Shown: positions 3,051-44,252 of the stretch, piece after piece
Layout: each line of letters starts with the position of its first letter
Numbering within the stretch: the stretch's first letter is position 1
Source of the DNA: Branchiostoma floridae
Lineage: Eukaryota; Chordata; Leptocardii; Amphioxiformes; Branchiostomatidae
Assembly (NCBI RefSeq): GCF_000003815.2
Contig: NW_023365750.1
Coordinates: 17,335-81,334 of the forward strand
Direction: 5' to 3'
Length of the DNA stretch: 64,000 nucleotides
The notes under the pieces: generated by a model
Databases searched by the model: none
What the model saw: the letters and a program-made list of their open reading frames with translations, nothing else
Told to the model about the DNA's origin: nothing
Program-made: the position numbers and the translations under genes

Positions 3051-3227
3051 GTAAAAAGTGTCTTTGGTCCAATGTGGATTAGTTATTCCTCAATCACAGT
3101 GAGCAGTTGAGCTTGTCTCAACCATAAAGTTTCTGACTTAGGGAGAGGAGATGTTGTTAATGTTACATATAAACCGAAACCTCTCAGTGGCCTTAGCGTC
3201 AAACCTTGATGTGACCTTCTGGTTATG

Positions 3228-3718
3228 GCTTTCAGCTCGGTGGTCGAGGTTGGTGACCAACGCGAGCGCCTTTCTTTGCGGAATACCCTTCGCCTCTGCC
3301 GGGCGTACCTATTGGTGCAACGCACGATATACCGGATAAGATACTGGTCCAACACCTCCAGAAAGAAAGACAGTTCATTCCGGTTGTCTTCGGCTCGCCT
3401 CGGGCCGACGGGCCCGGGTGCCCTGAATTTCTGGGGCTTGTACGGATGAACCTCACCGGCACTGACGGATGCCCACGGCCGTTCAGCTCGACCCCTCGCT
3501 TTGTTCCGTCGTGAAAACTCCCCGACTTGGGCACCTCTGACCTGCTTCGTGACGGAATACAAGTCAAAATCGTCGCTGTCGTCGCTGTCGACCTCCCCAG
3601 CGATATTCTGCCCAACAGTTCCATTCGCCCCGGCCGCCTCGGCTCTCTCAGCCACCGCTGCTTCCTGGAGATACATTTCAATGTCCTCCTCTATCTCTTC
3701 GTCGTCCCCGCTTGCCAT
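3228..3718 (-). pseudogene. piggyBac transposase, N-terminal fragment only
   Basis: The frame starts at the same ATG as the intact transposase at 37530 and matches its first ~164 residues (acidic N terminus MASGDDEEIEEDIEMYL, then SDDSDDFDLY, then PYKPQKFRAPGPVGPRR) with a handful of substitutions. Identity stops abruptly after STTELKA at 3228; the frame then runs on into unrelated sequence to a stop at 3083. All three catalytic aspartates lie in the missing part, so no active enzyme can be made. The break has no TTAA or inverted repeat, so it is not a transposon end. Confidence 0.85.
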
Positions 3719-3959: not shown

Positions 3960-4734
3960 TAGGTAGGCAGAGCGACCCACGACATGGTCAGACACCCTGT
4001 AGAGCACTTTTTTGAAAAACCACCGAGACACGGTCTCGGGCTTGGTCTCGGCACCGGGAGGCCGAACTAAGGCCGAAAAAAGCGCGCTGCGCCCGCCTGT
4101 AGTGGACACGGCGCCCGCTACGAGGTAGTCATCGGCGGCGAGAGGCGCCTCCAACCGCCGCCGACCTCGTTCCGCCGCCATGAGCTGCCGGTCACCCTTA
4201 TGGCCGACATCCGGTCATGCATCCGATGTAACAAGGCCTGTACAAAGGAACCGTGCCTTGGCGTCACCTCGAGGCTCGGCGGGACCTTCCTGCCACCGCC
4301 GCATCGTGCTCGCTCGCATGGCCAGCCCGGGGCTTCCTCTGACACGATTGCAGTCGGGCGGTGCAAAGGTCACACACCGCCCGCCCAAGGCTTCACCGCT
4401 GCCCGGTGCAAAGCCCGTTGGACCCGCCAAACAGAGAAAAGTCACCGGGCAAGCCCGTCTTTTCACCGTGCGGAAATCTTGCCCGCTCAGCCACGGTCCC
4501 TGTCGACCAGTCCCGGACTGGCCAGCCATCGGCAGGAACCCGTCAGGGTCCGCGGAAGGCTGGCTGACTCCGAACAGGTCAAAAAGCGTCCACTCTCTCA
4601 ATGTAGATTGAGCGACCTACAACATGGTCAGACACCCGGTAAAGCACTTTTTTGAAAAACGCTCCACGGGGTGGGTGCCGGAGCCTGGTGACCTGATCAC
4701 CGCTGGCTATCCGGACCCGACCCGGTCGACCCCG
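3960..4734. repeat. GC-rich spacer with two copies of the GGTCAGACACC/CACTTTTTTGAAAAA motif
   Basis: This spacer between the SINE and the 124-bp array has no coding signal despite open frames on both strands. It contains two copies (near 3980 and 4625) of a ~50-bp motif, GGTCAGACACCC...GCACTTTTTTGAAAAA, which recurs seven more times in the two blocks. The first half is unlike the other spacer repeats. The second half resembles the module at 10690-10830 and 12370-12540. It corresponds to 37772-38536 in block 2. Confidence 0.55.
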
Positions 4735-5560
4735 ACCAAGATCGGAGGAGTCCCCACCGGCGAGCCCGCCTGCCGGGCATTGCCGAGCGGCCTTGCTCGG
4801 CGTGCCGGCCACTGCCCCCGCCGGCGTGCCCCCGGGCTCTCCGTCGGCAACGGGCCCGACCAACATTGGAGGAGTTCTTACCGGCGAGCCCGCCTACCGG
4901 GCATTACCGAGCGGCCTTGCTCGGCGTGCCGGCCACTGCCCCCGCTGGCGTGCCCCAGGGCTCTCCGTCGGCAACGGGCCCGACCAACATTGGAGGAGTT
5001 CTTGCCGGCGAGCCCGCCTGCCGGGCATTACCGAGCGGCCTTGCTCAGCGTGCCGGCCACTGCCCCCGCCGGCGTGCCCCAGGGCTCTCCGTCGGCCTCG
5101 GGCCCGACGAACATTGGAGGAGTTCTTGCCGGCGAGCCCGCCTACCGGGCATTACCGAGCGGCCTTGCTCGGCGTGCCGGCCACTGCCCCCGCCGGCGTG
5201 TCTCCTCAGGCTTGGTCGGCAACGGGCCCGATCAACATCGGAGGAGTCCTTACCGGCGAGCCCGCCTGCCGGGTATTACCGAGCGGCCTTGCTCGGCGTG
5301 CCGGCCACTGCCCCCGCCGGCGTGTCTCTGAGGTCTTGGTCGGCAACGGGCCCGACCAACATTGGAGGAGTCCTTACCGGCGAGGAACGCCTGCCGGGTA
5401 TTACCGAGCGGCCTTGCTCGGCGTGCCGGCCACTGCCGCCACCGGCGTGCCCCCGCGGTCTTGGTCGGCAACGGGGCCCGACCAACATTGGAGGAGTCTT
5501 AGCCGGCGAGCCCGCCTGCCGGGCATTACCGAGCGGCGAGCTCGGGGCGCCGGTCACCGC
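4735..5560. repeat. 124-bp tandem repeat array, about 7 units
   Basis: Units begin near ACCAACATTGGAGGAGT and recur every ~124 bp (for example at about 4861 and 4985). Each carries GCATTACCGAGCGGCCTTGC and GCCGGCCACTGCCCC. The unit is GC-rich, lacks plus-strand stops in all three frames, and its length is not a multiple of three, so long frames arise by chance of composition. Related units occur at 10840-11115, 13400-13675, 15980-16255 and 38537-41250. That distribution on both sides of the 18S resembles rDNA intergenic-spacer repeats. Confidence 0.8.
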
Positions 5561-7910
5561 CCACGCCGGACGTCTGGTCTTCAACAGGCCCGGCCCGCGC
5601 ACCTACCCCTGCCTTCGTACAGCATCGTAACCCTGTAGTCCCTCCGATCTTCTAATCGGCGGAGACACCCCAGTATCGAGGGGTGCCCCCCTGGACACCC
5701 GTGACTCGGGCTCGCAGGGAAGACATTCTACAGAGCACAGTCTCTACCGGGGAGAGCGTCTCCGCCAGGAAGCTGAACACATAGAAAGCCTGTCGTTCGG
5801 CACTATCGTTTCCGAGACGTGGAAGGTGCCCTTCGTGGTGAAGGGCGCAAACGAGCGGAAGGGCTGGGGGTCGCTCCGCGAACCGGGACCCGCTGCGATG
5901 ACCGCCTCACGCCCCCTGAGCATCCCTGCCGGTCGGCCGGACCCGGTTAGACGCAGAGGGGACGGTGACGCCCGCCCTTCTCTTTAAGACCTCGGGGAGT
6001 GTAGCATCCGGTCGAGACCGCCGGTGGCTGGCCGGCGGGACCGAGACAGCAGTCCTCCCCTCTGCCCAAAGGAGGCCTTGGACCGCGGGACGCCCGCTCG
6101 AAGTCCGACGCTTAAGGTTAGGCCACTCGTCCGCAAGACCGATTGCATTGAGTCAGAGACTGAAACGCCACGCCGGGGTGCCGGGGAAGAGCCGTCTCAC
6201 CTAGGCCCCGCCGTGAGACTAAACCGCGACCCCATTCCGCGCAAACCCGCGACGCGTCGCCCCTCCGCCAGGATATAGGCGCTCCCATTTTCGCTCGCCC
6301 GCCCTAAACTTTTCGCCGGGAGGACCTAACTCCGTCCTCGACCAGGCTACTCGGAGCGGCTCGCTGATTGAGTCTGGGGAACGACGGGCGCTCAATGAAG
6401 GCCCCCGACCAACGTTCCAAGGGAGCTGCCGGGTCCCGCCGCCGAGCGGGTCGGCCTGGGCGCTCCTGACTCTCCGCCCGCGCTCGACGTCGTCTTAAGA
6501 CGGACGACAAGCGATTGACGCGAGAGCACCGTCGGAGCGCCACCTTGTCGAGGCGGTAAGGAAGAGTGGGTCGGGGTGGGAGGCCAGGGGCACCGCCCGC
6601 TCCTTGCCACGAGGTGTGCAAAGAGCAACACTAGGAGTGGCGTGCACGTGCTTGTGCGGCCGTCCGTCCGGACGGGCTCGCTTCGTACCCAACGCTCTTC
6701 GCAGTCTCTACTGGGGAGTGCCAGCTCGATTGTCCGGGGCGCAAGTCGGACGGCGGAGTTGCGCCGGGCCCGGTCGGGGTCGCGTGGTGAAACAACTCCC
6801 CACGGCCCATCCAAGCGAGGCGTCGCCAGTCCGAGAAGCATTCGGGTTCGGACGCGAGAGACACCGCAGGAGGGAACTGCGAAAACCTGAACTTCGGAGG
6901 ACGAAGCTACACCGATCGCAGCGTGGACACCAGCTTCGACAGACCCCAGCAGCGCGTCACACCACCGCACTACTAAGAGAGCGGCGTTGTGACGCGATTG
7001 AAGGTAAAACCAACCCTCGTTTTTCATCTTTGATTTCGCAACGAAAGCTTGTCATTTGCCTCTCGGCACCACCGTTTCAGGGACGTGAGTGTCGCCCTTC
7101 ATGGTGAAGGGCGCAAACGAGCGGAAGGGCTGGGGGTCGCTCCGCGAACCGGGACCCGCTGCGAAGACCGCCTCACGCCCCCTGAGCATCCCTGCCGGCC
7201 GAACCCGGTTAGACGCAGAGGGGACGGTGACGCCCGCCCTTCTCTTTAAGACCTCGGGGAGTTTAGCATCCGGTCGATACCGCCGGTGGCTGGCCGGCGG
7301 GACCGAGACAGCAGTCCTCCCCTCTGCCCAAAGGAGGCCTTGGACCGCGGGACGCCCGCTCGAAGTCCGACGCTTAAGGTTAGGTCACTCGTCCGCAAGA
7401 CCGATTGCATCGAGTCAGAGACCGAAACGCCAAGCCGGGGTGCCGGGGAAGAGCCGTCTCACCTAGGCCCCGCCGTGAGACTAAACCGCGACCCCATTCC
7501 GCGCAAACCCGCGACGCGACGCCCCTCCGCCAGGACATAGGTGCCCATTTTCGCTCGCCCGCCCTAAACTTTTCGCCGGGAGGACCTGACTCCGTCCTCG
7601 ACCAGGCTACTCGGAGCGGCTCGCTGATTGAGTCTGGGGAACGACGGGCGCGCACTCAAGGCGCCCGACCAACGTTCCAAGGGAGCTGCCGGGTCCCGCC
7701 GCCGAGCGGGTCGGCCTGGGCGCCCCTGACTCTCCGCCTGCGCTCGCCGCCGTCTTAAGACGGACGACAAGCGATTGACGCGAGAGCACCGTCGGAGCGC
7801 CACCTTGTCCAGGCGGTAAGGAAGAGTGGGTCGGGGTGGGAGGCCAGGGGCACCGCCCGCTCCTTGCCACGAGGTGTGTACAAGTAGACACGAGTGTCTA
7901 CTTTGTATGG
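5561..7910 (-). other. ITS/spacer-like rDNA region with a ~780-bp internal duplication
   Basis: On the minus strand this lies directly downstream of the 18S 3' end, where ITS1, 5.8S and ITS2 would be expected. Two ~780-bp direct copies (about 5837-6614 and 7103-7875) are highly similar and offset by about 1.26 kb; the second abuts the 18S. Between them (6615-7090) is a unique ~475-bp segment. I could not find the conserved 5.8S core or any 28S landmark on either strand. Open frames on both strands are composition artefacts. Region 5561-5836 leads into the 124-bp array. The same arrangement occurs at 41300-43646. Confidence 0.6.
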
Positions 7911-9669
7911 TAATGAACCTTCCGCAGGTTCACCTACGGAAACCGTTACGAGTTTTACTTCCCTTAAATGATCAAGTTTGATCGGTTTCTCAGCGATCCT
8001 CCCGGCGGTTGCCAAAGAGGGCCGACCTCACAAAACCATTCAATCGGTAGTAACGACGGGCGGTGTGTACAAAGGACAGGGACTTAATCAACGCGTGCTG
8101 ATGACACGCATCTACTGGGAATACCTCGTTCATGGGAATTAATTCCAATTCCCAGTCCCTATCACGAAGGCGGTTCAGCAGGTTACCCGCACCTTTCGGC
8201 GAATGCGAAACACTCGCTGATGCCTTCATTGTAGCGAGCGTGTGGTCCCGGACATGTAAGGGCATCACAGACCGTAATTGCTCCATCTCGTCTTTGGCTA
8301 ACAGCCAGCTGGTACCTCTAGTTACGGCGAAATCGAGCGGGATCGCCGAACCAGAGCTAGAGCAACCCCCGTCAACAGCCATGCACCACCATCCACAGAA
8401 TCAAGAAAGAACTCGCAATCTGTCAATCCTTACTGTGTCCGGGCCGGGTGAGTTTCCCCGTGTCGAGTCAAATTAAGCCGCAGGCTCCACTCCTGGTGGT
8501 GTCCTTCCGTCAATTCCTTCAAGTTTCAGCTTTGCAACCATACTTCCCCCGGAGCCCGAAAACTCAGGTTTCCCGGGAGCAACCCGTCGGGTCACCGAAG
8601 CAACGCCGGCGGATCGCTGGTTGGCATCGTTTATGGTTGTGACTATGGCGGTGTCTTATCGCCTTCGCGCCCACAACTTTCGTTCTTGATCAATGAAAAC
8701 ATTCTTGGCAAATGCTTTCGCAGTGGTTCGTCTTGCGGCGATCCAAGAATTTCACCTCTCCCGCCGCAATACGAATGCCCCCGTCCGTCCCTCTTGATCA
8801 TTACCTCACGTTCCGAAACCCAACGAAATAGGAACCGAGGCCCTATTCCATTATTCCATGCACCACAATTCAGGCGCCAGGCCTGCTTTGAACACTCTAA
8901 TTTTTTCAAAGTAAACGCTCCGGTACCTCGAGGCACTCAGTGAAGAGCACCGGGGAGAATCCGGCAGGAAAGGCCGGGGACGAGCAGTGACACGCCTCGC
9001 GGCGGACCGCAAGCCCGGTCCCAAGATCCAACTACGAGCTTTTTAACCGCAACAACTTTGATATACGCTATTGGAGCTGGAATTACCGCGGCTGCTGGCA
9101 CCAGACTTGCCCTCCAATAGATCCTCGTTAAAGGATTTAAAGCGTACCCATTCCAATTACGGGGCCTCGAAAGAGTCCCGTATTGTTATTTTTCGTCACT
9201 ACCTCCCCGAGTCGGGAGTGGATAATTTGCGCGCCTGCTGCCTTCCTTGGATGTGTTAGCCGTTTCTCAGGCTAACTCTCCGGAACCGAACCCTGATTCC
9301 CCGTCACCCGTTGCCACCATGGTAGGCACAGAACCTACCATCGATAGTTGATAGGGCAGACATTCGAATGATCTGTCGCCGGTCCGAAGACCGTGCGATC
9401 GGCTGGGTTATCCAGAGTCACCAAAGGACCAGGGCGAACCCCTGGTTGGATCTTGGTCTAAATAAATGCACGCCAAACCGTGAGGTCGGCGCTTCTTCCG
9501 CATGTATTAGCTCTAGAATTACCACAGTTATCCATGTAGGATGTGACGATCAAAGGAACCATAACTGATTTACTGAGCCATTCGCAGTTTCACTGGGACA
9601 GTTGAACTTGCACGTGCATGGCTTAATCTTTGAGACAAGCATATGACCACTGGCAGGATCAACCAGGTA
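7911..9669 (-). rRNA. 18S (SSU) ribosomal RNA, full length but divergent
   Basis: On the minus strand the gene starts TACCTGGTTGATCCTGCCAG at 9669 and ends with the canonical CTGCGGAAGG then TTCATTA at 7911, about 1759 nt, normal metazoan length. Conserved landmarks in order include CAGCCGCGGTAATTCCAGC, AGAGGTGAAATTCTTGGA, ACTTGAAGGAATTGACGG and CACACCGCCCGTC. It carries changes at nearly invariant positions: CTCGTAACGGTTTCC where eukaryotes have GTCGTAACAAGGTTTCC (three bases missing), GAGGTATTCCC for GAGGAATTCCC, and CCAGTGGTCATATGC for CCAGTAGTCATATGC. It may be a pseudogene or a divergent, transposon-borne lineage. It lies inside the composite element in the same orientation as the transposase. 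Confidence 0.9.
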
Positions 9670-10689
9670 GCGAGGACGCCCTGGTGGCAAGGCGGGCGGG
9701 CGTCACAGTCGCGCCGGGAGACGCTCTAGGCGTCTCGACCGGGACCGCGCCAAGCACCCGAGAACCGCCACCGCCAAAGTCCGTAGCTACAGTAAATTGG
9801 GAATGCGCAGCGGTGCCGCAAACCCACGGGAGCCTGAGCGCAGAACTCCCGACCACACCTGACCGTTGCTTCCCTTCAACGCCCGAGCCGTCCCCGCGAG
9901 GGAACGGTCCCGCACTCTCACGACCTACGCGTCTGCCGAGCAGACGGACGGCCGGGTCTCGAACTGCCAAGACCGCAAGGCGTACTCGCACGCAGACGGA
10001 AGGGGCGAGCCGTCGCCGTTTGGGTCCCTGGTTGACCCGGGCGCTGCCTCCGCGGAGGCCGGCCCCGGCGCTGCTTCCGGACGCCCTCGGCACGGCCGTC
10101 CTCGCCCGCAGGAACGGAGGAACGGCCGCCTTCCTAGCCGGTTGTCGACCTCCGGCTGCCCTCGCGGGGAGTGGCAGCCTGGTCGGTGGGGTAGCAAAAC
10201 GACTGGCGCCTCATAAAGGCAAGTAGGAACGACGGGCGCGCACTCAAGGCGCCCGAACGTGGGGCCCGCGCTTTTTACGGGCCCGACTACGTTCCAAGAG
10301 TGGTTCGGTGCGGGCGGACCGCCCGCTCCATACCACGAGCTCACGTTCTTGCTCAACGACAACAAGAACTTGTCTTGCGGCTAAGAATGCAGGCTGTATC
10401 ACTTCACCTCTCCTGTCTCAAAAACGAGGTGTGCCACAATTAGACACTGTTTGGCAACGCTTGCTCGCACGCAGGTAGAAATGGCGGTGGACCCAGACTC
10501 AGCCTCCGCGGAGGAAGTGTCCGAGGTGCTACTTATGGAAACCGCCGACAAGTAGGATGTCGACCTCCGGCTGCCCTCGCTGGGAGTGGCAGCCTGGTCG
10601 GCGGGGCAGCAAAACGACTGGCGAGAGAGTGTGCGATCACTCGCCACTCGCTGCCGTTTCCCGAGCCAGTCAAAAAACGACCACTCTCT
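9670..10689 (-). other. External-transcribed-spacer-like region upstream of 18S
   Basis: This GC-rich, non-coding stretch lies immediately 5' of the 18S on its strand, the position of a 5' ETS. A ~65-bp segment starting GTCGACCTCCGGCTGCCCTC occurs twice, near 10145 and 10559. It also shares GGAACGACGGGCGCGCACTC with the ITS-like region near 7641. A transcription start cannot be read from sequence alone. The spacer repeats begin at about 10690. Confidence 0.5.
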
Positions 10690-11194
10690 CAAGGTAGATT
10701 GAGCGAGTCACGACATGGTCAGACACCCTGTAGAGCACTTTTTTGAAAAACGCTCCACGGGGTGGGTGTCGGGGCCTGGTGACCTGATCACCGCCGGCTG
10801 TCCGGACCCGACCCGGCTCTCGGTCATCAACGGCACCAACCAACATTGGAGGAGTCTCTGCCAGCGAGCCAGCCTGCAGGGCATTACCGAGCGGCCTTGC
10901 TCGGCGTGCCGGCCACTGCCCCCGCAGGCAAGGCCCCGCACTCTCGGTCGGCAACGGGCCCGATCAACATTGGAGGAGTCCTTACCGGCGAAGAACGCCT
11001 GCCGGGTATTACCGAGCGGCCTTGCTCGGCGTGCCGGCCACTACCCCCGCCGGCGTGTCTCCGCGGTCTTGATCGGCAACGGGCCCGACCAACATTGGAG
11101 GAGTTCTTGCCGGCGAGCCCCACCGAGAGGGGTGGGCCTCGGGTGCCGGGTTAAAAGTCCCCCGCCGGCCAAGCAGGCCCGTCTCGGTTACATA
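10690..11194. repeat. Spacer module: shared motif plus ~2 units of 124-bp repeat
   Basis: The module begins with ACCACTCTCTCAAGGTAGAT, then the GGTCAGACACC...CACTTTTTTGAAAAA motif (10718-10750), then the CTGGTGACCTGATCACCGCC segment. About two and a half 124-bp-type units follow (ACCAACATTGGAGGAGT near 10839). The same order recurs at 13070-13675 and 15650-16255. It is the copy nearest the 18S, so it is the best candidate for a Pol I promoter module; that role is inference. Confidence 0.55.
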
Positions 11195-12390
11195 GCCAAT
11201 ACTTAATGCATTACGCCATGCCTGCAACACGATCAGGGCCGGTACAGTCCACTCCGGCCCCGTGTGCCGTTACTTCGTCCGCCAGTGCGGTCACATGGAC
11301 CTACCTGACACGGCAGCATCGTTCTCTCGTGCCTTGACGGCCCGGGAACTCCACCACCGCGATCGAAGTCGGCTGGAGCCGGAGACACAAACCGCCCGCC
11401 CACGGCTGACAGCTCGGCCGGTGCAGAGCCCGTTGGCACCGCCGGAGAGGGAAAAGTCACCGGACCATCCCGACTTTTCTCTCCGTGGGCGTGTACCCCG
11501 CACACCCACGGTCACTGTCGATCCATCCCGGACTCGACAGCCACCGGCAGAAACCCGTCAGGGTCCTACTACCGCCGTACCATAGCTAATACATGGCCAA
11601 TACTTAATGTATTACGCCATGCCTGCAACACGGTCAGGGTCGGTACGGTCCACTCCGGCCCCGTGTGCCGTTACTTCGTCTGCCAGTGCGGTCACATGGA
11701 CCTACCTGACACGGCAGCATCGTTCTCTCGTGCCTTGACGGCCCGGGAACTCCACCACCGCGATCGAAGTCGGCTGGAGCCGGAGACACAAACCGCCCGC
11801 CCACGGCTGACAGCTCGGCCGGTGCAGAGCCCGTTGGCACCGCCGGAGAGGGAAAGTCACCGGACATCCCGACTTTTCTCTCCGTGGGCGTGTACCCCGA
11901 ACACCCACGGGTCACTGTCGATCCATCCCGGACTCGACAGCCACCGGCAGAACCCCGTCAGGGTCCTACTACCGCCGTACCATAGCTAATACGTGCCCAA
12001 TACTTAATGTATTACGCCATGCCTGCAACACGGTCAGGGTCGGTACAGTCCACTCCGGCCCCGTGTGCCGTTACTTCGTCCGCCAGTGCGGTCACATGGA
12101 CCTACCTGACACGGCAGCATCGTTCTCTCGTGCCTTGACGGCTCGGGAACTCCACCACCGCGATCGAAGTCGGCTGGAGCCGGAGACACAAACCGCCCGC
12201 CCACGGCTGACAGCTCGGCCGGTGCAGAGCCCGTTGGCACCGCCGGAGAGGGAAAAGTCACCGGACCATCCCGACTATTCTCTCCGTGGGCATGTTCCCC
12301 GCACACCCACGGTCACTGCCGATCCATCCCGGACTCGACAGCCACCGGCAGAAACCCGTCAGGCTCCGCGGAAAGCCGAGCTAGTCAAAA
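11195..12390. repeat. 401-bp spacer repeats, three tandem units
   Basis: Units start at GCCAATACTTAATG and recur at 11195, 11596 and 11996, a period of 401 bp (the second is 400). Each contains CTCGTGCCTTGACGGC, CACCACCGCGATCGAAGTCG and GACAGCTCGGCCGGTGCAGA. Frames of about 107 and 132 codons (plus) and 90 codons (minus) recur in each unit but show single-base frame breaks between units and no codon bias. I read them as non-coding rDNA-spacer-type repeats. Confidence 0.8.
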
Positions 12391-13756
12391 AACGACCACT
12401 CTCTCAAGGTAGATTGAGCGAGCCACGACATGGTCAGACACCCTGTAAAGCACTTTTTTGAAAAATGCTCCACGGGGTGGGTGCCGGGGCCTGGTGACCT
12501 GATCACCGCCGGCTGTCCGGACCCGACCCGGTCGACCCCGATCGGCGCCAACCGGCCTTTGGCACCGACACCCGGCCCGCCAAAGCGGTCACTGGGACCT
12601 GCCTTACGTGACCGGGGACCTGCCTTACGCAACCGGGGACGGTCACGGGTTTTGCCTCAGCGCAGAGAGGCTAATACATAGCCAATACTTAATGTATTAC
12701 GCCATGTCTGCAACACGGTCAGAGCCGGTACGGTCCACTCCGGCCCCGTGTGCCGTTACTTCGTCCGCCAGTGCGGTCACATGGACCTACCTGACACGGC
12801 AGCATCGTTCTCTCGTGCCTTGACGGCCCGGGAACTCCACCACCGCGATCGAAGTCGGCTGGGGCCGGAGACACAAACCGCCCGCCCACGGCTGACAGCT
12901 CGGCCGGTGCAGAGCCCGTTGGCACCGCCGGAGAGGGAAAAGTCACCGGACCATCCCGACTTTTCTCTCCGTGGGCATGTTCCCCGCACACCCACGGTCA
13001 CTGCCGATCCATCCCGGACTCGACAGCCACCGGCAGAAACCCGTCAGGCTCCGCGGAAAGCCGAGCTAGTCAAAAAACGACCACTCTCTCAAGGTAGATT
13101 GAGCGAGCCACGACATGGTCAGACACCCTGTAAAGCACTTTTTTGAAAAATGCTCCACGGGGTGGGTGCCGGGGCCTGGTGACCTGATCACCGCCGGCTG
13201 TCCGGACCCGACCCGGTCGACCCCGATCGGCGCCAACCGGCCTTTGGCACCGACACCCGGCCCGCCAAAGCGGTCACTGGGACCTGTCTTACGCGACCGG
13301 GGACCTGCCTTACGCGACCGGGAGAGTTTACGGGCTTCTCCTCGGCGCCTGGAGGCCTGGGCATCCGCTAAAGCATGCGTTTCGCCACAGCTCTCGGTCA
13401 TCAACGGCACCAACCAACATTGGAGGAGTCTCTGCCAGCGAGCCCGCCTGCCGGGCATTACCGAGCGGCCTTGCTCGGCGTGCCGGCCACTGCCCCCGCA
13501 GGCGAGTCCCCGCGCTCTCGATCGGCAACGGGCCCGATCAAGATTGGAGGAGTCCTTACCGGTGAGTCCGCCTGCCGGGCATTACCGAGCGACCTTGCTC
13601 TGCGTGCCGGCCACTGCCCCCGCCGGCGTGTCTCCGCGGTCTTGATCGGCAACGGGCCCGACCAACATTGGAGGCATACTTAGCACGGCTCTCGCCGCCC
13701 GATCTAGAGCCCGTGACGGACATTGCAAGGCTAGCATCGGGTGGGCGACCCCGCTC
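12391..13756. repeat. Higher-order spacer repeat: motif module, 401-bp-type unit, motif module, 124-bp units
   Basis: Two motif modules (12391-12680 and about 13046-13400) flank a 401-type unit starting at 12681, followed by 124-bp-type units to about 13675 and a short distinct tail (GGCATACTTAGCACGGCTCTC). The segment 12681-13754 recurs nearly unchanged at 15262-16335, offset 2581 bp, showing a higher-order repeat. It stops at the 100-N gap. Confidence 0.7.
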
Positions 13757-13856
13757 NNNNNNNNNNNNNNNNNNNNNNNNNNNNNNNNNNNNNNNNNNNN
13801 NNNNNNNNNNNNNNNNNNNNNNNNNNNNNNNNNNNNNNNNNNNNNNNNNNNNNNNN
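13757..13856. other. Assembly gap (100 N)
   Basis: A run of exactly 100 Ns, the usual placeholder for a gap of unknown size, inside the spacer repeat array. Repeat copy number here is therefore not reliable. Confidence 0.99.
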
Positions 13857-16335
13857 GTCCGCCAGTGCGGTCACATGGACCTACCTGACACGGCAGCATC
13901 GTTCTCTCGTGCCTTGACGGCCCGGGAACTCCACCACCGCGATCGAAGTCGGCTGGAGCCGCAGACACAATCCGCCCGCCCACGGCTGACAGCTCGGCCG
14001 GTGCAGAGCCCGTTGGCACCGCCGGAGAGGGAAAAGTCACCGGACCATCCCGACTTTTCTCTCCGTGGGCATGTTCCCCGCACACCCACGGTCACTGCCG
14101 ATCCATCCCGGACTCGACAGCCACCGGCAGAAACCCGTCAGGCTCCGCGGAAAGCCGAGCTAGTCAAAAAACGACCACTCTCTCAAGGTAGATTCAGCGA
14201 CCCACGACCTGGTCAGACACCCTGTAGAGCACTTTTTTGAAAAATGCTCCACGGGGTGGGTGCCGGGGCCTGGTGACCTGATCACCGCCGGCTGTCCGGA
14301 CCCGACCCGGTCGACCCCGATCGGCGCCAACCGGCCTTTGGCACCGACACCCGGCCCGCCAAAGCGGTCACTGGGACCTGCCTTACGTGACCGGGGACCT
14401 GCCTTACGCAACCGGGGACGGTCACGGGTTTTGCCTCAGCGCAGAGAGGCTAATACATAGCCAATACTTAATGTATTACGCCATGTCTGCAACACGGTCA
14501 GAGCCGGTACGGTCCACTCCGGCCCCGTGTGCCGTTACTTCGTCCGCCAGTGCGGTCACATGGACCTACCTGACACGGCAGCATCGTTCTCTCGTGCCTT
14601 GACGGCCCGGGAACTCCACCACCGCGATCGAAGTCGGCTGGGGCCGGAGACACAAACCGCCCGCCCACGGCTGACAGCTCGGCCGGTGCAGAGCCCGTTG
14701 GCACCGCCGGAGAGGGAAAAGTCACCGGACCATCCCGACTTTTCTCTCCGTGGGCGTGTTACCCGCACACCCACGGTCACTGCCGATCCATCCCGGACTC
14801 GACAGCCACCGGCAGAAACCCGTCAGGGTCCTACTACCGCCGTACCATAGCTAATACATAGCCAATACTTAATGTATTACGCCATGCCTGCAACACGGTC
14901 AGGGTCGGTACGGTCCACTCCGGCCCCGTGTGCCGTTACTTCGTCTGCCAGTGCGGTCACATGGACCTACCTGACACGGCAGCATCGTTCTCTCGTGCCT
15001 TGACGGCCCGGGAACTCCACCACCGCGATCGAAGTCGGCTGGAGCCGGAGACACAAACCGCCCGCCCACGGCTGACAGCTCGGCCGGTGCAGAGCCCGTT
15101 GGCACCGCCGGAGAGGGAAAAGTCACCGGACCATCCCGACTTTTCTCTCCGTGGGCGTGTTCCCCGCACACCCACGGTCACTGTCGATCCATCCCGGACT
15201 CGACAGCCACCGGCAGAAACCCGTCAGGGTCCTACTACCGCCGTACCATAGCTAATACATGGCCAATACTTAATGTATTACGCCATGCCTGCAACACGGT
15301 CAGGGTCGGTACGGTCCACTCCGGCCCCGTGTGCCGTTACTTCGTCTGCCAGTGCGGTCACATGGACCTACCTGACACGACAGCATCGTTCTCTCGTGCC
15401 TTGACGGCCCGGGAACTCCACCACCGCGATCGAAGTCGGCTGGAGCCGGAGACACAAACCGCCCGCCCACGGCTGACAGCTCGGCCGGTGCAGAGCCCGT
15501 TGGCACCGCCGGAGAGGGAAAAGTCACCGGACCATCCCGACTTTTCTCTCCGTGGGCATGTTCCCCGCACACCCACGGTCACTGCCGATCCATCCCGGAC
15601 TCGACAGCCACCGGCAGAAACCCGTCAGGCTCCGCGGAAAGCCGAGCTAGTCAAAAAACGACCACTCTCTCAAGGTAGATTGAGCGAGCCACGACATGGT
15701 CAGACACCCTGTAAAGCACTTTTTTGAAAAATGCTCCACGGGGTGGGTGCCGGGGCCTGGTGACCTGATCACCGCCGGCTGTCCGGACCCGACCCGGTCG
15801 ACCCCGATCGGCGCCAACCGGCCTTTGGCACCGACACCCGGCCCGCCAAAGCGGTCACTGGGACCTGTCTTACGCGACCGGGGACCTGCCTTACGCGACC
15901 GGGAGAGTTTACGGGCTTCTCCTCGGCGCCTGGAGGCCTGGGCATCCGCTAAAGCATGCGTTTCGCCACAGCTCTCGGTCATCAACGGCACCAACCAACA
16001 TTGGAGGAGTCTCTGCCAGCGAGCCCGCCTGCCGGGCATTACCGAGCGGCCTTGCTCGGCGTGCCGGCCACTGCCCCCGCAGGCGAGTCCCCGCGCTCTC
16101 GATCGGCAACGGGCCCGATCAAGATTGGAGGAGTCCTTACCGGTGAGTCCGCCTGCCGGGCATTACCGAGCGACCTTGCTCTGCGTGCCGGCCACTGCCC
16201 CCGCCGGCGTGTCTCCGCGGTCTTGATCGGCAACGGGCCCGACCAACATTGGAGGCATACTTAGCACGGCTCTCGCCGCCCGATCTAGAGCCCGTGACGG
16301 ACATTGCAAGGCTAGCATCGGGTGGGCGACCCCGC
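13857..16335. repeat. 401-bp spacer repeats and higher-order copy 2
   Basis: After the gap come a partial 401-type unit (to about 14145), a motif module (about 14146-14455), 401-type units starting at 14460, 14861 and 15262, another motif module (about 15636-15980) and 124-bp-type units (about 15980-16255). 15262-16335 duplicates 12681-13754. Unit-to-unit differences are few, suggesting homogenisation like that of rDNA spacers, or recent amplification. Confidence 0.75.
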
Positions 16336-16548: not shown

Positions 16549-16564
16549 ACTAATAAAGTGTTAA
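16549..16564. repeat. Terminal inverted repeat and TTAA target site (18S-side end)
   Basis: The sequence TAATAAAGTG is followed by TTAA (16561-16564), preceded by TTGCGAC. Reversed, this reads TTAACACTTTATTA, two bases, CGCA. The transposase-side end at 35067 reads TTAACACTTTATTACGCA: 14 exact matches, then CGCA after a 2-bp offset. TTAA is the specific target of piggyBac transposases. GC-rich repeats end here and AT-rich sequence starts at 16565, as expected for an element boundary. Confidence 0.7.
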
Positions 16565-16620
16565 CATCTGCTGCACCTCACTACAAAAATATTTCGAGCA
16601 TCACTATATATCATTTTTGN
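16565..16620. other. Short flank between composite element and mucin gene, ending in a single N
   Basis: 56 bp of AT-rich sequence outside the element, ending in a lone N at 16620 where the mucin coding sequence starts abruptly. The N suggests a join, so adjacency of element and mucin exon is uncertain. Confidence 0.6.
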
Positions 16621-17111
16621 GTCTTCTCTGGCCTGGTGGTCTCAGGATAGGTCTTCTCTGGCTTGGTGGTCTCAGGGTAGGTCTGCTCTGGCCTGGTGGT
16701 CTCAGGGTAGGTGCTCTCTGGCCTGGTGGTCTCAGGGTAGGTGCTCTCTGGCCTAGTGGTCTCAGGGTAGGTGCTCTCTGGCCTGGTGGTCTCAGGGTAG
16801 GTGCTCTCTGGCCTGGTGGTCTCAGGGTAGGTGCTCTCTGGCCTGGTGGTATACGCTTCTGAGATTGTTGTAGAAGAGGGAGTTGTAACCTTCCTGGGTG
16901 TTTTGTATGTTGTTGTATCAGTCTCTGGCTTGGTAGTCTCAGCCGTAGTCCAAGTGGTTGGTGTTGTTGTGACTTCTGGCTGGGTAGTAACAACTACAGC
17001 AGTCGTACTAACAACAACTGGAGTTGTGGTGGTGCAGAAGTTCTCACATCTCAGTTGGTTGTTGTAACAGTCGCAGATATGGCATTCATCTATCTGCTTC
17101 TTTTCACCAGG
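16621..17111 (-). CDS. Mucin exon: VWC-like module then Thr/Pro repeats (truncated)
   Basis: The exon starts after TGTCTCCCTAG. It encodes a VWC-like cysteine module (GEKKQIDECHICDCYNNQLRCENFC), a Thr/Val-rich linker, the recurrent TYKTPRKVTTP motif, and at least six 10-residue repeats of the type RPESTYPETT (30-bp DNA units). It stops at the single N at 16620 without a stop codon or splice donor, so the exon is incomplete. Confidence 0.8.
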
Positions 17112-26942: not shown

Positions 26943-27099
26943 CTGCAGAAAACAACAAGCAGAGAAATCTGTGAGCAGTCTATTCCACAATATTCACAAT
27001 CAATGAAAGGCACCATGACTAAGTAGATATGATTCATCATAAAGATTATATTTCAGCCATACATAGTATGGTGAAATATATTGTATTCGTAATGTTTCT

Positions 27100-28713: not shown

Positions 28714-28744
28714 AATACGTTAACTTGAAGACTCAGGCCGTACA

Positions 28745-35066: not shown

Positions 35067-35088
35067 TTAACACTTTATTACGCAGAGT
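35067..35088. repeat. TTAA target site and terminal inverted repeat (transposase-side end)
   Basis: Reads TTAA (35067-35070), then CACTTTATTACGCAGAGT. It is the inverted counterpart of the end at 16560 (CACTTTATTA, 2 bp, CGCA). It sits between the LINE frame and the first 127-bp repeat, 0.5 kb beyond the transposase stop codon, as expected for a piggyBac end. Confidence 0.7.
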
Positions 35089-35583
35089 ATCGGTATTTGT
35101 CGGTTAGACACAAAGTTGCCATCGGACAGAATCGCATCTTCTCCCAGTAACTTTACAACCGTTTGCCGGTCTTGCAACACATTTTCTTTAGTCCTATAAC
35201 TTTACAAGTCGGATTATCGGTAGTTGCCGGTTAGACACAAAGTTTCCACCGGACATAATCGCATCTTCTCCCAGTAACTTTACAACCTTTGGCCGGTCTT
35301 GCAACACATTTTCTTTAGTCCTATAACTTTACAAGTCGGATTATCGGTAGTTGCCGGTTAGACACAAAGTTGCCACCGGACAGAATCGCATCTTCTCCCA
35401 GTAACTTTACAACCTTTGGCCGGTCTTGCAACACATTTTCCTTAGTCCTAAAACTTTACAAGTCGGATTATCGGTAGTTGCCGGTTAGACACAAAGTTGC
35501 CACCGGACAGAATCGCATCTTCTCCCAGTAACTTTACAACATTTGGCCGGTCTTGCAACACACTTTCCTCGGTCCTAAACCAT
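35088..35583. repeat. 127-bp subterminal tandem repeats, four units
   Basis: Units begin ATCGGTAGTTGCCGGTTAGA at about 35088, 35216, 35343 and 35470 (period 127-128 bp). Each contains CGCATCTTCTCCCAGTAACT and GGCCGGTCTTGCAACACA. The last unit runs up to the transposase stop codon. Subterminal repeats commonly serve as transposase binding sites; that role here is inferred from position. Confidence 0.8.
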
Positions 35584-37530
35584 CTATGCATCGCCCTGCA
35601 TGTCCTGCAAGTGCTCACGCCAACACTCGGGGCGCAAACTGACGTGGCATACGGACACGTTGCACATCTCGCATTTGTAGACAGTCTCGAACGGTCTGCA
35701 CCGTTTCGCTCGTGGCATATGACGGCCAGCTTTTGCGCAGTAACGACAGGCTTTAGTGGGTTTCCCTTGGCTTATCTGCCGGTGGTTGCCGATGACTCCT
35801 GGCAGGGCCACGCTCGCAGTGGGTGTTCGGTGCCTTGCGGAGAAATTGCCGATTAGCTGCCGCACTAACGCCCGTCGAAAGCTCAGCTGGGCAACCCTAT
35901 GTGCTGGGAGATCCTGTCTGACAGCAGTGTATGTCTTCCAGTTCAAGAAGGCGTTCACCACAGCTTTGTCCATGGCGTACCAGAAGATTTGCCTGTGCCA
36001 TTTCTTCGAAGGCCGACCGAATTCGTACCCTGCCCGGAGCTGGTCGGCTGTGTCCACCGCCTTGTAGTGGAGATTGTACATGTTCATCGCTGCAGGACAT
36101 GTCACCTCTAGTCGGGTAGCACCACTGGGACCCTTGCATCGCCTGGTGGTTAGTTCGTCGGGAGCACAGACACTAGTTCCCGTAGAAAGCAGTATGAGCG
36201 ATTTGGTGTCTTGCCATTTCACAACCGTTACCGGCCCGTCGTGGTACCGGACAGAGGTGCCTCTCGGTACACTCTTAGGATAGGGGTCTGGGAACTTCAG
36301 CAATGGCGGCCTGCCTGGCCCAGGCCTAGGTTTGCGTGGAACGGGATGCCCTTCCGTCGGTAGGCCTGACGCATTTCGTCTCACCGTCCCCACAATGTAA
36401 GTGTCTTTGGTGAAAAGGTAATCTGCCAGTTGGACTCCTGTGTAGTAGGAATCGCAATAAACGGTGCGGTAGCATCCCTGAAATGGCATCGTCAGTCTAT
36501 TGACGACTCGGGCGGGCTTCAGATCAAGAGGGCTGACATATTCGTCACCAATGCCGTGCATGCATCTTTCGTCCGGCGACATGTCCTCTGGGTCCGCACG
36601 CCCTCCACACACTTCGTCGGACAATATGTAGCCGTCTGTCTCAGCCAGAGCTCGGAGACAGTATCCATACTTTGTCGGCTTCGAAGGGTTGTAGCGCCGA
36701 AGACTGTGCCTTCCCCTAAACGCTACTGTCGCTTCGTCAACTACGAGATGCTCGCCGACATGGCGGGCACGGCAACTATTCCGACTGACCCTCTCCATAA
36801 CTTTGCGTACCTTCATAACTCGGTCCAACTTCTCCCTTGCTTTAAAACTCTTCAGACGCTCGCTGCCAGGAGGACAGAACCCTTCGGGGGAGTAGTGAAG
36901 GTACCGCAAGATTTGACGAAAACGATGAGAAGGAAAAGTCCTTTTCATCAGCGTACACCCAACGTCATCGTCATCAGACCAGTACAAATCGAGTCTCGGT
37001 TGGTACGTGTAGCCGGCGCATATCATGCAGCCCAAAAAGGCTTTCAGCTCGGTGGTCGAGGTGGGTGACCAACGCGAGCGCCTTTCTTTGCGGAATACCC
37101 TTCGCCTCTGCCGGGCGTACCTATTGGTGCAACGCACGATATACCGGATAAGATACTGGTCCAACACCTCCAGAAAGAAAGACAGTTCATTCCGGTTGTC
37201 CTCGGCTCGCCTCGGGCCGACGGGCCCGGGTGCCCTGAATTTCTGGGGCTTGTACGGATGAACCTCACCGGCACTGACGGATGCCCACGGCCGTTCAGCT
37301 CGACCCCTCGCTTTGTTCCGTCGTGAAAACTCCCCGACTCGGGCACCTCTGACCTGCTTCGTGACGGAATACAAGTCAAAATCGTCGCTGTCGTCGCTGT
37401 CGACCTCCCCAGCGATATTCTGCCCAACAGTTCCATTCGCCCCGGCCGCCTCGGCTCTCTCAGCCACCGCTGCTTCCCGGAGATACATTTCAATGTCCTC
37501 CTCTATCTCTTCGTCGTCCCCGCTTGCCAT
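35584..37530 (-). CDS. piggyBac transposase, intact (648 aa)
   Basis: An intact cut-and-paste transposase of the piggyBac superfamily, which excises and inserts at TTAA. The ATG at 37530 opens an acidic N terminus (1-60). The DDE-type core follows with the three expected aspartates: D265 in LVVDEATVAFRGR, D360 in VYCDSYYTG and D493 in YNLHYKAVDTADQ. The C-terminal domain is cysteine-rich (C595, C598, C611, C620, C623, C628, C636), the ring-finger-like DNA-binding domain of piggyBac proteins. Length is typical (about 600). No frameshift or stop is present, so it may be active. It is followed by 127-bp repeats and a TIR, and preceded by a SINE, rDNA-like repeats and 18S in the same orientation. 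Confidence 0.93.
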   Translation of the reverse strand: MASGDDEEIEEDIEMYLREAAVAERAEAAGANGTVGQNIAGEVDSDDSDDFDLYSVTKQVRGARVGEFSRRNKARGRAERPWASVSAGEVHPYKPQKFRAPGPVGPRRAEDNRNELSFFLEVLDQYLIRYIVRCTNRYARQRRRVFRKERRSRWSPTSTTELKAFLGCMICAGYTYQPRLDLYWSDDDDVGCTLMKRTFPSHRFRQILRYLHYSPEGFCPPGSERLKSFKAREKLDRVMKVRKVMERVSRNSCRARHVGEHLVVDEATVAFRGRHSLRRYNPSKPTKYGYCLRALAETDGYILSDEVCGGRADPEDMSPDERCMHGIGDEYVSPLDLKPARVVNRLTMPFQGCYRTVYCDSYYTGVQLADYLFTKDTYIVGTVRRNASGLPTEGHPVPRKPRPGPGRPPLLKFPDPYPKSVPRGTSVRYHDGPVTVVKWQDTKSLILLSTGTSVCAPDELTTRRCKGPSGATRLEVTCPAAMNMYNLHYKAVDTADQLRAGYEFGRPSKKWHRQIFWYAMDKAVVNAFLNWKTYTAVRQDLPAHRVAQLSFRRALVRQLIGNFSARHRTPTASVALPGVIGNHRQISQGKPTKACRYCAKAGRHMPRAKRCRPFETVYKCEMCNVSVCHVSLRPECWREHLQDMQGDA

Positions 37531-37611: not shown

Positions 37612-37771
37612 CGCCCTACCATGAACAATGGACCACGGCTTAACGTCCTGTCCTAAGGACTGCAACCCTTTCCGGTAGCGTGCATGTCGGGTGAACGACA
37701 CAGCCGGGATCGAACCCACGGCTTCTAGTTCCAGAGGCAAGGCCGCTAACCACTGGACTACGCGCGCTACC
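37612..37771 (-). repeat. tRNA-derived SINE (copy in block 2)
   Basis: Matches the SINE at 3800-3959 (offset 33812), with box A-like TAGTCCAGTGG and box B-like GGTTCGATCCC. Same position relative to the transposase in both blocks, so it was already there before the block was copied. Confidence 0.65.
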
Positions 37772-38536
37772 TAGGTAGGCAGAGCGACCCACGACATGGT
37801 CAGACACCCTGTAGAGCACTTTTTTGAAAAACCACCGAGACACGGTCTCGGGCTTGGTCTCGGCACCGGGAGGCCGAACTTAGGCCGAAAAAAGCCCGCT
37901 GCGCCCGCCTGTGGTGGACACGGCGCCCGCTACGAGGTAGTCATCGGCGGCGAGAGGCGCCTCCAACCGCCGCCGACCTCGTTCCGCCGCCGTGAGCTGC
38001 CGGTCACCCTTATGGCCGACATCCGGTCATGCATCCGATGTAACAAGGCCTGTACAAAGGAACCGTGCCTTGGCGTCACCTCGAGGCTCGGCGGGACCTT
38101 CCTGCCACCGCCGCATCGTGCTCGCTCGCATGGCCAGCCCGGGGCTTCCTCTGACACGATTGCAGTCGGGCGGTGCAAAGGTCACACACCGCCCGCCCAA
38201 GGCTTCACCGCTGCCCGGTGCAAAGCCCGTTGGACCCGCCAAACAGGGAAAAGTCACCGGGCAAGCCCGTCTTTTCATTGTGCGGAAATCTTGCCCGCTC
38301 AGCCACGGTCCCTGTCGACCAGTCCCGGACTGGCCAGCCATCGGCAGAAACCCGTCAGGCTCCGCGGAAAGCCGAGCTAGTCAAAAAACGACCACTCTTC
38401 TCAAGGTAGATTGAGCGACCCACGACCTGGTCAGACACCCTGTAAAGCACTTTTTTGAAAAATGCTCCACGGGGTGGGTGCCGGGGCCTGGTGACCTGAT
38501 CACCGCCGGCTGTCCGGACCCGACCCGGTCGACCCC
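37772..38536. repeat. GC-rich spacer with two shared motifs (block 2)
   Basis: Counterpart of 3960-4734, with copies of GGTCAGACACC...CACTTTTTTGAAAAA near 37799 and 38428. The two blocks differ mainly after about 38360, where block 2 follows the version seen in the spacer modules (GCCGAGCTAGTCAAAAAACG). Confidence 0.55.
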
Positions 38537-41250
38537 GACCAACATTGGAGGAGTCCTTACCGGCGAGCCCGCCTGCCGGGCATTACCGAGCGGCCTTGCT
38601 CAGCGTGCCGGCCACTGACCCCGCCGGCGTGCCCCAGGGCTCTCCGTCGGCAACGGGCACGACCAACATTGGAGGAGTCCTTACCGGCGAGGAACGCCTG
38701 CCGGGTATTACCGAGCGGCCTTGCTCGGCGTGCCGGCCACTGCCCCCGCCGGCGTGTCTCCTCAGGCTTGGTCGGCAACGGGCCCGATCAACATTGGAGG
38801 AGTTCTTGCCGGCGAGCCCGCCTGCCGGGCATTACCGAGCGGCCTTGCTCAGCGTACCGGCCACTGCCCCCGCCGGCGTGCCCCCGGGCTCTCCGTCGGC
38901 CTCGGGCCCGACGAACATTGGAGGAGTTCTTGCCGGCGAGCCCGCCTACCGGGCATTACCGAGCGGCCTTGCTCGGCGTGCCGGCCACTGCCCCCGCCGG
39001 CGTGTCTCCGAGGTCTTGGTCGGCAACGGGCTCGACCAACATTGGAGGAGTCCTTACCGGCGAGCCCGCCTGCCGGGCATTACCGAGCGGCCTTGCTCAG
39101 CGTGCCGGCCACTGACCCCGCCGGCGTGCCCCAGGGCTCTCCGTCGGCAACGGGCACGACCAACATTGGAGGAGTCCTTACCGGCGAGGAACGCCTGCCG
39201 GGTATTACCGAGCGGCCTTGCTCGGCGTGCCGGCCACTGCCCCCGCCGGCGTGTCTCCTCAGGCTTGGTCGGCAACGGGCCCGATCAACATTGGAGGAGT
39301 TCTTGCCGGCGAGCCCGCCTGCCGGGCATTACCGAGCGGCCTTGCTCAGCGTACCGGCCACTGCCCCCGCCGGCGTGCCCCCGGGCTCTCCGTCGGCCTC
39401 GGGCCCGACGAACATTGGAGGAGTTCTTGCCGGCGAGCCCGCCTACCGGGCATTACCGAGCGGCCTTGCTCGGCGTGCCGGCCACTGCCCCCGCCGGCGT
39501 AACCCCGGGCTCTCCGTCGGCCTCGGGCCCGACGAACATTGGAGGAGTTCTTGCCGGCGAGCCCGCCTACCGGGCATTACCGAGCGGCCTTGCTCAGCGT
39601 GCCGGCCACTGCCCCCGCCGGCGTGTCTCCGAGGTCTTGGTCGGCAACGGGCTCGACCAACATTGGAGGAGTCCTTACCGGCGAGCCCGCCTGCCGGGCA
39701 TTACCGAGCGGCCTTGCTCAGCGTGCCGGCCACTGCTCCCGCCGGCGTACGCCCGGGCCCTCCGTCGGCCTCGGGCCCGACCAACATTGGAGGAGTTCTT
39801 GCCGGCGAGCCCGCCTACCGGGCATTACCGAGCGGCCTTGCTCGGCGTGCCGGCCACTGCCCCCGCCGGCGTAACCCCGGGCTCTCCGTCGGCCTCGGGC
39901 CCGACGAACATTGGAGGAGTTCTTGCCGGCGAGCCCGCCTACCGGGCATTACCGAGCGGCCTTGCTCGGCGTGCCGGCCACTGCCCCCGCCGGCGTAACC
40001 CCGGGCTCTCCGTCGGCCTCGGGCCCGACGAACATTGGAGGAGTTCTTGCCGGCGAGCCCGCCTACCGGGCATTACCGAGCGGCCTTGCTCAGCGTGCCG
40101 GCCACTGCCCCCGCCGGCGTGTCTCCGAGGTCTTGGTCGGCAACGGGCTCGACCAACATTGGAGGAGTCCTTACCGGCGAGCCCGCCTGCCGGGCATTAC
40201 CGAGCGGCCTTGCTCAGCGTGCCGGCCACTGCTCCCGCCGGCGTACGCCCGGGCTCTCCGTCGGCCTCGGGCCCGACCAACATTGGAGGAGTTCTTGCCG
40301 GCGAGCCCGCCTACCGGGCATTACCGAGCGGCCTTGCTCGGCGTGCCGGCCACTGCCCCCGCCGGCGTGTCTCCTTAGGCTTGGTCGGCAACGGGCCCGA
40401 TCAACATCGGAGGAGTCCTTACCGGCGAGCCCGCCTGCCGGGTATTACCGAGCGGCCTTGCTCGGCGTGCCGGCCACTGCCCCCGCCGGTGTGCCCCCGG
40501 GCTCTCCGTCGGCAACGGGCCCGACCAACATTGGAGGAGTTCTTGCCGGCGAGCTCGCCTGCCGGGCATTACCGAGCGGCCTTGCTCGGCGTGCCGGCCA
40601 CTGCCCCCGCCGGCGTAACCCCGGGCTCTCCGTCGGCAACGGGCCCGACCAACATTGGAGGAGTTCTTGCCGGCGAGCTCGCCTGCCGGGCATTACCGAG
40701 CGGCCTTGCTCGGCGTGCCGGCCACTGCCCCCGCCGGCGTAACCCCGGGCTCTCCGTCGGCCTCGGGCCCGACGAACATTGGAGGAGTTCTTGCCGGCGA
40801 GCCCGCCTACCGGGCATTACCGAGCGGCCTTGCTCGGCGTGCCGGCCACTGCCCCCGCCGGGCAACGGCGTGCCGGCCACTGCCCCCGCCGACCAACATT
40901 GGAGGAGTCCTTACCGGCGAGCCCGCCTGCCGGGTGCCGGCCACTGCCCCCGCCGGCAACGGGCCCGACCAACATTGGAGGAGTTCTTGCCGGCGAGCCC
41001 GCCTGCCGGGCATTACCGAGCGGCCTTGCTCAGCGTGCCGGCCACTGCCCCCGCCGGCGTGCCCCCGGGCTCTCCGTCGGCAACGGGCCCGACGAACATT
41101 GGAGGAGTCCTTACCGGCGAGCCCGCCTGCCGGGTATTACCGAGCGGCATTGCTCGGCGTGCCGGCCACTGCCCCCGCCGGCGTGCCCCCGCGGTCTTGG
41201 TCGGCAACGGGCCCGACCAACATTGGAGGAGTCTTAGCCGGCGAGCCCGC
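38537..41250. repeat. Expanded 124-bp tandem repeat array, about 22 units
   Basis: Same unit as 4735-5560 but about three times as many copies, with higher-order similarity (38545-38930 and 39042-39420 nearly identical, offset 497, four units). A plus-strand frame stays open for 948 codons (38545-41391), and the other plus frames are also long. Because 124 is not divisible by 3, the frames are the same repeat read in rotating phase, the mark of stop-poor DNA rather than a gene. Copies near 40860-40960 are scrambled. Confidence 0.85.
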
Positions 41251-43646: not shown

Positions 43647-44152
43647 TAATGAACCTTCCGCAGGTTCACCTACGGAAACCGTTACGAGTTTTACTTCCCT
43701 TAAATGATCAAGTTTGATCGGTTTCTCAGCGATCCTCCCGGCGGTTGCCAAAGAGGGCCGACCTCACAAAACCATTCAATCGGTAGTAACGACGGGCGGT
43801 GTGTACAAAGGACAGGGACTTAATCAACGCGTGCTGATGACACGCATCTACTGGGAATACCTCGTTCATGGGAATTAATTCCAATTCCCAGTCCCTATCA
43901 CGAAGGCGGTTCAGCAGGTTACCCGCACCTTTCGGCGAATGCGAAACACTCGCTGATGCCTTCATTGTAGCGAGCGTGTGGTCCCGGACATGTAAGGGCA
44001 TCACAGACCGTAATTGCTCCATCTCGTCTTTGGCTAACAGCCAGCTGGTACCTCTAGTTACGGCGAAATCGAGCGGGATCGCCGAACCAGAGCTAGAGCA
44101 ACCCCCGTCAACAGCCATGCACCACCATCCACAGAATCAAGAAAGAACTCGC
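43647..44152 (-). rRNA. 18S rRNA, 3' part (cut by gap)
   Basis: The last 506 nt of the 18S, matching 7911-8416, including the same unusual CTCGTAACGGTTTCC and GAGGTATTCCC variants. Both copies share the three-base deletion, so it is not a random sequencing error. The gap removes the rest. Confidence 0.9.
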
Positions 44153-44252
44153 NNNNNNNNNNNNNNNNNNNNNNNNNNNNNNNNNNNNNNNNNNNNNNNN
44201 NNNNNNNNNNNNNNNNNNNNNNNNNNNNNNNNNNNNNNNNNNNNNNNNNNNN
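44153..44252. other. Assembly gap (100 N)
   Basis: 100 Ns inside the 18S of block 2. Sequence after the gap is unrelated AT-rich DNA, so ETS, spacer and far TIR of this copy are missing, and the join to the GPCR locus is unproven. Confidence 0.99.

Follow-up and report, generated by a model that had tools for sequence, protein, structure and literature searches.

Two blocks in a stretch of Branchiostoma floridae DNA stop at the same short inverted repeat next to TTAA: one contains an 18S rRNA gene and spacer repeats, the other a piggyBac-type transposase. The stretch analysed (64,000 nucleotides, C192:17335-81334) is referred to here as the window. Its structure raises the question of whether the ribosomal DNA is cargo of a transposon or host rDNA with transposons beside it. 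Searches covered a single genome of 513 Mb in 431 contigs, in which the rDNA lies partly in gaps. According to the accessible text of the genome report, the assembly is Sanger-based, and the species has 19 chromosomes and two divergent haplotypes (PMC7269912).

The terminal repeat, TTAACACTTTATTA, is 14 bp long and occurs exactly twice in the window, at 16551-16564 on the minus strand and at 35067-35080 on the plus strand, each time flanked by TTAA. Allowing up to two mismatches revealed no third place in the 64 kb. The 14 bases are followed by GTCGCA at the first end and by CGCA at the second, and the original description of an exact repeat plus a CGCA offset by two bases was correct for both ends. 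From base composition, 0.0007 exact occurrences of this 14-mer are expected in 64 kb; in shuffled sequences, with up to two mismatches, the mean was 0.50 and two or more occurrences were present in 11 of 100 shuffles. In the genome as a whole, 14 exact matches to the 14-mer compare with 18 for a reversed-pattern control. Because the matches do not exceed those of the control, the short repeat alone proves little. It is its position, not its mere occurrence, that lifts it above chance: 11 of the 14 matches are mapped element ends, and the remaining three sit on C5, C11 and C173. Longer end sequences are specific for the element. A 235-bp right end has seven matches in the genome, every one an element end with 99-100% identity. 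For the 234-bp left end, 21 matches were obtained, comprising five full-length ends at 99-100%, nine shifted matches to 127-bp subrepeats in those five copies and seven weaker pieces elsewhere.

Pairing of both ends revealed two-ended units at four places, on C15, C10, C2 and C183, with lengths of 9,553-13,230 bp. TTAA is present at seven of their eight ends, the eighth being TTAG in C2. The internal order is the same in all four: left end, 127-bp repeats, transposase, tRNA-like piece, spacer, 124-bp repeats, ITS1-like DNA, 18S, ETS, spacer repeats and right end. Read in the sense of the rRNA, the right end is followed by intergenic spacer repeats, promoter region, 5'ETS, 18S, ITS1, further spacer repeats and a promoter-region box, then by the transposase and the left end. 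The C10 unit has 211 nt of 18S, and the other three have 1,758-1,759 nt. The expectation that both ends flank one unit was borne out at these four places, with TTAA at all ends except one of the two in C2 and with flanks free of rDNA; the proposed size of at least ~17 kb was too large.

In the window itself, the two ends do not bound one element, as had been proposed. The right end at 16564 belongs to one broken copy (A) and the left end at 35067 to another (B), and the DNA between them (16565-35066) is not part of the element (Table 1). The left end of copy A is lost inside the transposase at ~3227, where unrelated DNA adjoins that appears by eye to bear exons (3180-3260 area). Copy B and the C183 copy occupy one and the same TTAA in a LINE-like repeat and have ~1.39 kb of left flank in common (99.2% identity); they may be alleles or two insertions into two copies of that repeat. 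A 6-kb stretch of the right flank of the C183 copy has no match anywhere in the window, and the right side of copy B beyond the gap is therefore not that flank. The window contains a single N at 16620 and two contig joins of 100 N (13757-13856 and 44153-44252). Between 16625 and 23187 it holds arrays of 15-, 21-, 30- and 45-bp repeats of the CTCTGGCCTGGTGGTCTCAGG type, perhaps a mucin-like coding repeat.

Table 1 Features of the two broken copies in the window and location of the four complete copies. Positions are those of the window unless a contig is named.
Copy	Feature	Position	Strand	Remark
A	Transposase fragment, residues 1-166 of 648	3221..3718 (C192:20555-21052)	-	Copy A lacks the left end
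A	rDNA promoter-region box (61 nt) immediately upstream of transposase	3961..4021	-	1 mismatch to box before C13 18S
A	GC-rich spacer repeats, 124-bp	4731..5569	.	
A	Two ITS1-like segments	5567..7904	-	
A	18S rRNA gene, degenerate but full-length	7911..9669	-	Rfam match and alignments
A	5'ETS-like DNA	9670..10634	-	Homologous pieces 9670-10208 and 10549-10634, extra DNA between
A	Promoter-region box upstream of 18S	10692..10752	-	5 mismatches/61
A	Intergenic-spacer-like repeats, 124-bp and 400-bp units	10817..16255	.	N gap 13757-13856
A	Further boxes within spacer repeats	12407, 13092, 14186, 15673		
A	Right terminal inverted repeat and TTAA	16551..16564	-	
	LINE-like open frame, host of copy B insertion at TTAA	33535..35073	-	LINE reading by eye
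B	Left terminal inverted repeat and TTAA	35067..35080	+	
B	Subterminal 127-bp repeats, 3.8 units	35088..35567	.	
B	Unbroken 648-aa piggyBac transposase frame	35584..37530	-	DDE_Tnp_1_7, E 1.2e-64
B	Segment resembling a tRNA (SINE-like), located between promoter box and transposase	37641..37790	-	By eye; no tRNA predicted by ARAGORN
B	Promoter-region box upstream of transposase	37773..37833	-	1 mismatch/61
B	Second box	38404-38464		6 mismatches
B	GC-rich 124-bp spacer repeats	38534..41303	.	
B	Two ITS1-like segments	41301..43640	-	
B	18S gene, 3' part	43647..44152	-	Cut by N gap 44153-44252
C15	Complete copy	C15:3498105-3509712		11,608 bp; TTAA at both ends
C10	Complete copy	C10:1232130-1241682		9,553 bp; TTAA at both ends
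C2	Complete copy	C2:154149-165407		11,259 bp; TTAA at one end, TTAG at the other
C183	Complete copy	C183:54725-67954		13,230 bp; TTAA at both ends

In principle, such an arrangement could be an assembly chimaera in which repeat collapse joined rDNA reads to a transposon. Ribosomal DNA is prone to collapse and some copies do contain N gaps. However, one order and one pair of exact ends are found at four places whose flanks differ, and three of the copies (C10, C2 and C183) are free of N; the C15 copy has 761 N, all within the transposase. We therefore regard a chimaera as very unlikely. The same low probability is given to spread by segmental duplication or ectopic recombination of an rDNA pseudogene that already held a dead transposon. 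The near-identity of the 18S sequences among the copies (99.5-99.7%) would fit such duplication, as would ~1.6 kb of right flank that C3 and C193 have in common. Nevertheless, the copies end at TTAA (one at TTAG), no shared flank was seen beyond the ends among the C15, C10, C2 and C183 copies, and four transposase frames are unbroken. C3 and C193 form, together with window copy A, a fifth site at which the right end only is found: the left end is missing from C3 and from copy A, and the C193 copy begins inside the 18S at a contig edge. While copy A retains a full 18S, C3 has none, and the cargo is thus not always kept.

A different explanation is that the rDNA belongs to the host and lies beside or between piggyBac insertions resembling the Daphnia element Pokey. 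That piggyBac elements can inhabit rDNA is shown by Pokey, as far as the accessible text goes (PMC3849761), and exact patterns for 5.8S and 28S have no match in the assembly, so that the true arrays are missing and a comparison is hard. Two lines of evidence speak against host rDNA. First, the DNA outside the ends was searched in 14 stretches of 130 bp to 24.7 kb each, eight from the four complete copies and six from three copies of a second family described below; none had a match to the element or to rDNA (E 1e-5). Second, for each of the four sites the 130-bp flanks were joined over a single TTAA and the resulting 264 bp were searched genome-wide, the evaluated matches (45 in number) stemming from the best 40 of 1,012 candidates. 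The C183 join was matched over its full 264 bp at no fewer than eight element-free places, with 100% identity in six and 99% in two. At least seven element-free relatives with 77-89% identity span the C15 join, and at least three with 75-83%, located 5-7 kb from the insertion itself, span that of C10. No spanning relative of the C2 join was among the matches listed. Related empty sites thus close over one TTAA for three of the four sites. Because these element-free repeat relatives match the joined flanks, the DNA that the TTAAs enclose is an insertion, and the two-ended unit as a whole entered TTAA sites in a single piece. The relatives are repeat copies within the same assembly; the predicted empty TTAA sites therefore exist for three sites, although not as alleles in a population, other individuals or other haplotypes. 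For the first family the host-rDNA explanation is largely refuted, and overall we consider it improbable. The original idea of a single TTAA-inserting element in which transposase, SINE-like piece, spacer repeats and 18S move together is supported.

The family-1 transposase has 648 amino acids and matches the Pfam domain DDE_Tnp_1_7 over residues 117-528. At the sequence level it resembles piggyBat (9c0f, E 1.6e-24) and piggyBac (6x67, E 5e-15). Its motifs VVDEA, YCDSYY and YKAVDTADQ align with the Asp-holding motifs of piggyBat; these Asp residues, which we take to be the catalytic ones, are kept in family 2. Judged by transposase domain, Asp motifs and TTAA duplication, the elements are members of the piggyBac superfamily. 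Stop-free full-length frames are present in four copies (C192, C183, C10 and C2), and among the complete copies that of C15 is interrupted by the N gap. The genome search for the transposase yielded 47 matches, and most older pieces were set aside. Older, partly broken relatives lie at C217:191388, on C363 and at C14:3042376, C9:608427 and C19:563774.

As an rRNA gene, the family-1 18S is most likely a pseudogene. A working 18S was rejected on the basis of seven deletions, among them losses of 37 nt (1294-1330 in host numbering), 13 nt (1697-1709) and 2 nt (1781-1782, within the GTCGTAACAAGG motif), and because only four of 13 universal motifs, as we entered them, are kept. The full Rfam 18S model scores it with 1,471.5 bits versus 1,727.7 bits for the C1 gene. 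Relative to the C1 copy, mismatches amount to 5.1-5.3% in 18S, 7.3-7.7% in ETS and 5.8-7.6% in ITS1. The divergence of the 18S is uneven, with 1.5-8% per 200-nt bin over the first 1,200 nt and 10-19% in the next three bins. Uniform decay is ruled out by this distribution, and a part of the gene may have been homogenised with host rDNA. The copies have probably moved recently, since the 18S sequences of four copies differ so little from each other. The 18S search of the genome gave 27 matches, from which 13 shorter fragments were set aside.

The order of family 1 recurs in a second family, whose transposase is related. Three stop-free transposases (C15:1667300, C9:5047002 and C10:3042866) each lie 9.5-10.9 kb downstream of an 18S gene that has the same orientation. 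They are 63% identical to those of family 1, with pN 0.26 and pS 0.735 over 622 codons. The genome search gave three left ends of this family, each with a right end and with 18S in between, and on the right all three copies stop at one and the same base; the right-end pattern has five matches, namely these three and two further ones on C4 and C14. The copies measure 15,090 bp (C10), 15,946 bp (C15) and 15,978 bp (C9). The target duplication is TTAA in C15 and TTAT in C10; C9 has CTAA on the left and a right end without a clean adjoining copy. Spacer repeats, promoter box, ETS, 18S, ITS1, an N gap (7,292 bp in C10), a second box (read in C10) and the transposase follow each other; ITS1 is absent from C9 as assembled.

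The 18S of family 2 is 100% identical among the three copies in ungapped columns, with 21 nt missing from C15 and 863 nt covered in C9; it shares 99.2% identity with the genes on C1 and C13. It shows 14 differences from C1, and 11 of these lie at positions 222-265 and 651-793, which are presumably variable regions. Twelve of the 13 universal motifs are present in the C10 and C15 copies, as in C1, and 11 in C13 as assembled; the thirteenth, as typed, is in no copy of any class. With an Rfam score of 1,732.2 bits for the C10 copy, this 18S could, judged from its sequence, be usable. A family search for 5.8S gave none over the cut-off among the best 39 of 10,579 candidates. We propose, tentatively and with more doubt than belief, that family 2 might consist of mobile whole rDNA units, with 5.8S and 28S in the 7.3-kb gap of C10, an 18S fit for ribosomes, a transposase driven by an rDNA promoter and new ribosomal loci seeded on other chromosomes. 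If this were true, the units would provide a direct mechanism for wandering nucleolus organisers.

The transposase and the 18S share an upstream sequence element. A 61-nt box that precedes the C13 18S, with an identical counterpart in C14, is from its position a putative Pol I promoter. It is found directly upstream of the transposase in all seven scanned family-1 copies that reach this region, with one mismatch in A, B, C2, C15, C183 and C3 and two in C10. Before the 18S, it has three to nine mismatches in family 1. At 6.5% divergence, the chance probability for a family-1 transposase box with 1/61 mismatches is ~0.09, a weak hint of constraint on the transposase-side box. Family 2 runs opposite: the transposase box of its C10 copy, with seven mismatches, is worse than that before the 18S with two. 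Just as IGS-derived repeats lie upstream of the transposase in Pokey, the box and spacer repeats found there are common to the spacer upstream of 18S, the host IGS having been read in part for this comparison.

We consider it very probable that the window holds two broken copies of piggyBac-superfamily elements with a partial rDNA unit as cargo, and this estimate includes the following steps. The element's own transposase would cut at both ends and paste the whole unit in a cut-and-paste manner. Ribosomal DNA could have been gained when an element residing within or next to rDNA made use of a remote end on the far side of an adjacent rRNA unit, or when the far ends of two adjacent insertions in or near rDNA were used and the intervening rDNA was taken along. 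The promoter box of the rDNA may then have been kept as the driver of the transposase gene, placed at the start of the next rRNA transcript; this is the step of which we are least sure. Against the cargo explanation count the fifth site without a left end, the short 18S of C10, the unspanned C2 join and the unclean duplication in C9.

Several known systems show partial resemblance. R2 and other retrotransposons of rDNA insert in 28S and to our knowledge carry no rRNA genes; the point of comparison with the present elements is a possible dependence on rDNA transcription, and they differ in being retrotransposons. The closest known system is Pokey of Daphnia (PokeyA and PokeyB), which according to the accessible text belongs to the piggyBac superfamily, averages ~5.1 kb and contains IGS pieces of ~200 bp and ITS2 pieces of 50 bp (PMC3849761). 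It sits at one 28S site and elsewhere, with 88.13% TTAA, 5.93% TTAT and 0.85% CTAA among its targets; both of its families retain, on the upstream side of the transposase, IGS repeats for which the authors favour a role in transcription (PMC3849761). Superfamily, TTAA target with minority variants and two divergent families with spacer upstream of the transposase are common to both systems. Unlike Pokey, for which the accessible text mentions no rRNA gene, the elements described here carry 18S, promoter region, ETS and ITS1 and at 9.6-16 kb are ~2-3 times as large; family 1 alone, at 9.6-13.2 kb with 18S, does not fit an element of ~5.1 kb with rDNA spacer pieces only. We therefore file them under the piggyBac superfamily and not under Pokey, set apart by the published description of the latter. 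Since two transposase families both carry rDNA beside the transposase, in parallel to Pokey, we suggest that the rDNA sequence does something for the element. Teratorn of fish, a 41-182 kb element that combines piggyBac with a herpesvirus, is likewise enlarged with foreign cargo, which is however viral; the words rDNA and rRNA are absent from the main text of the respective review on giant transposons (PMC6431247). Among the titles and beginnings of abstracts listed in a literature search that covered neither preprints nor most subscription papers, none named a DNA transposon with an rRNA gene as cargo.

Ribosomal DNA can accordingly be moved as transposon cargo. Shifts in the chromosomal position of rDNA loci between related species are described in the accessible parts of two reports, and transposition has been proposed (PMC9261981, PMC11354594). 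This idea becomes directly testable with an element that carries an rRNA gene, has defined ends and related empty sites, and keeps its transposase frames unbroken.

Some further 18S loci have a different structure. The genes at C13:1272201-1277900 and C14:138201-143200 are 100% identical to C1 in ungapped columns and have a spacer of their own; no transposase was listed beside them in the transposase search. One of the four stretches that cover these loci (L040, L041, L050 and L051), L050, turns from AT-rich to GC-rich at ~1370. These loci may be nucleolus organisers or a third element family. In the region of C1:32000330 (L037:760-1330), a C13/C14-type 18S gene adjoins LINE-like sequence at a shared 5'ETS start (L037:772), which may represent a pre-rRNA-derived insertion or an rDNA-LINE junction.
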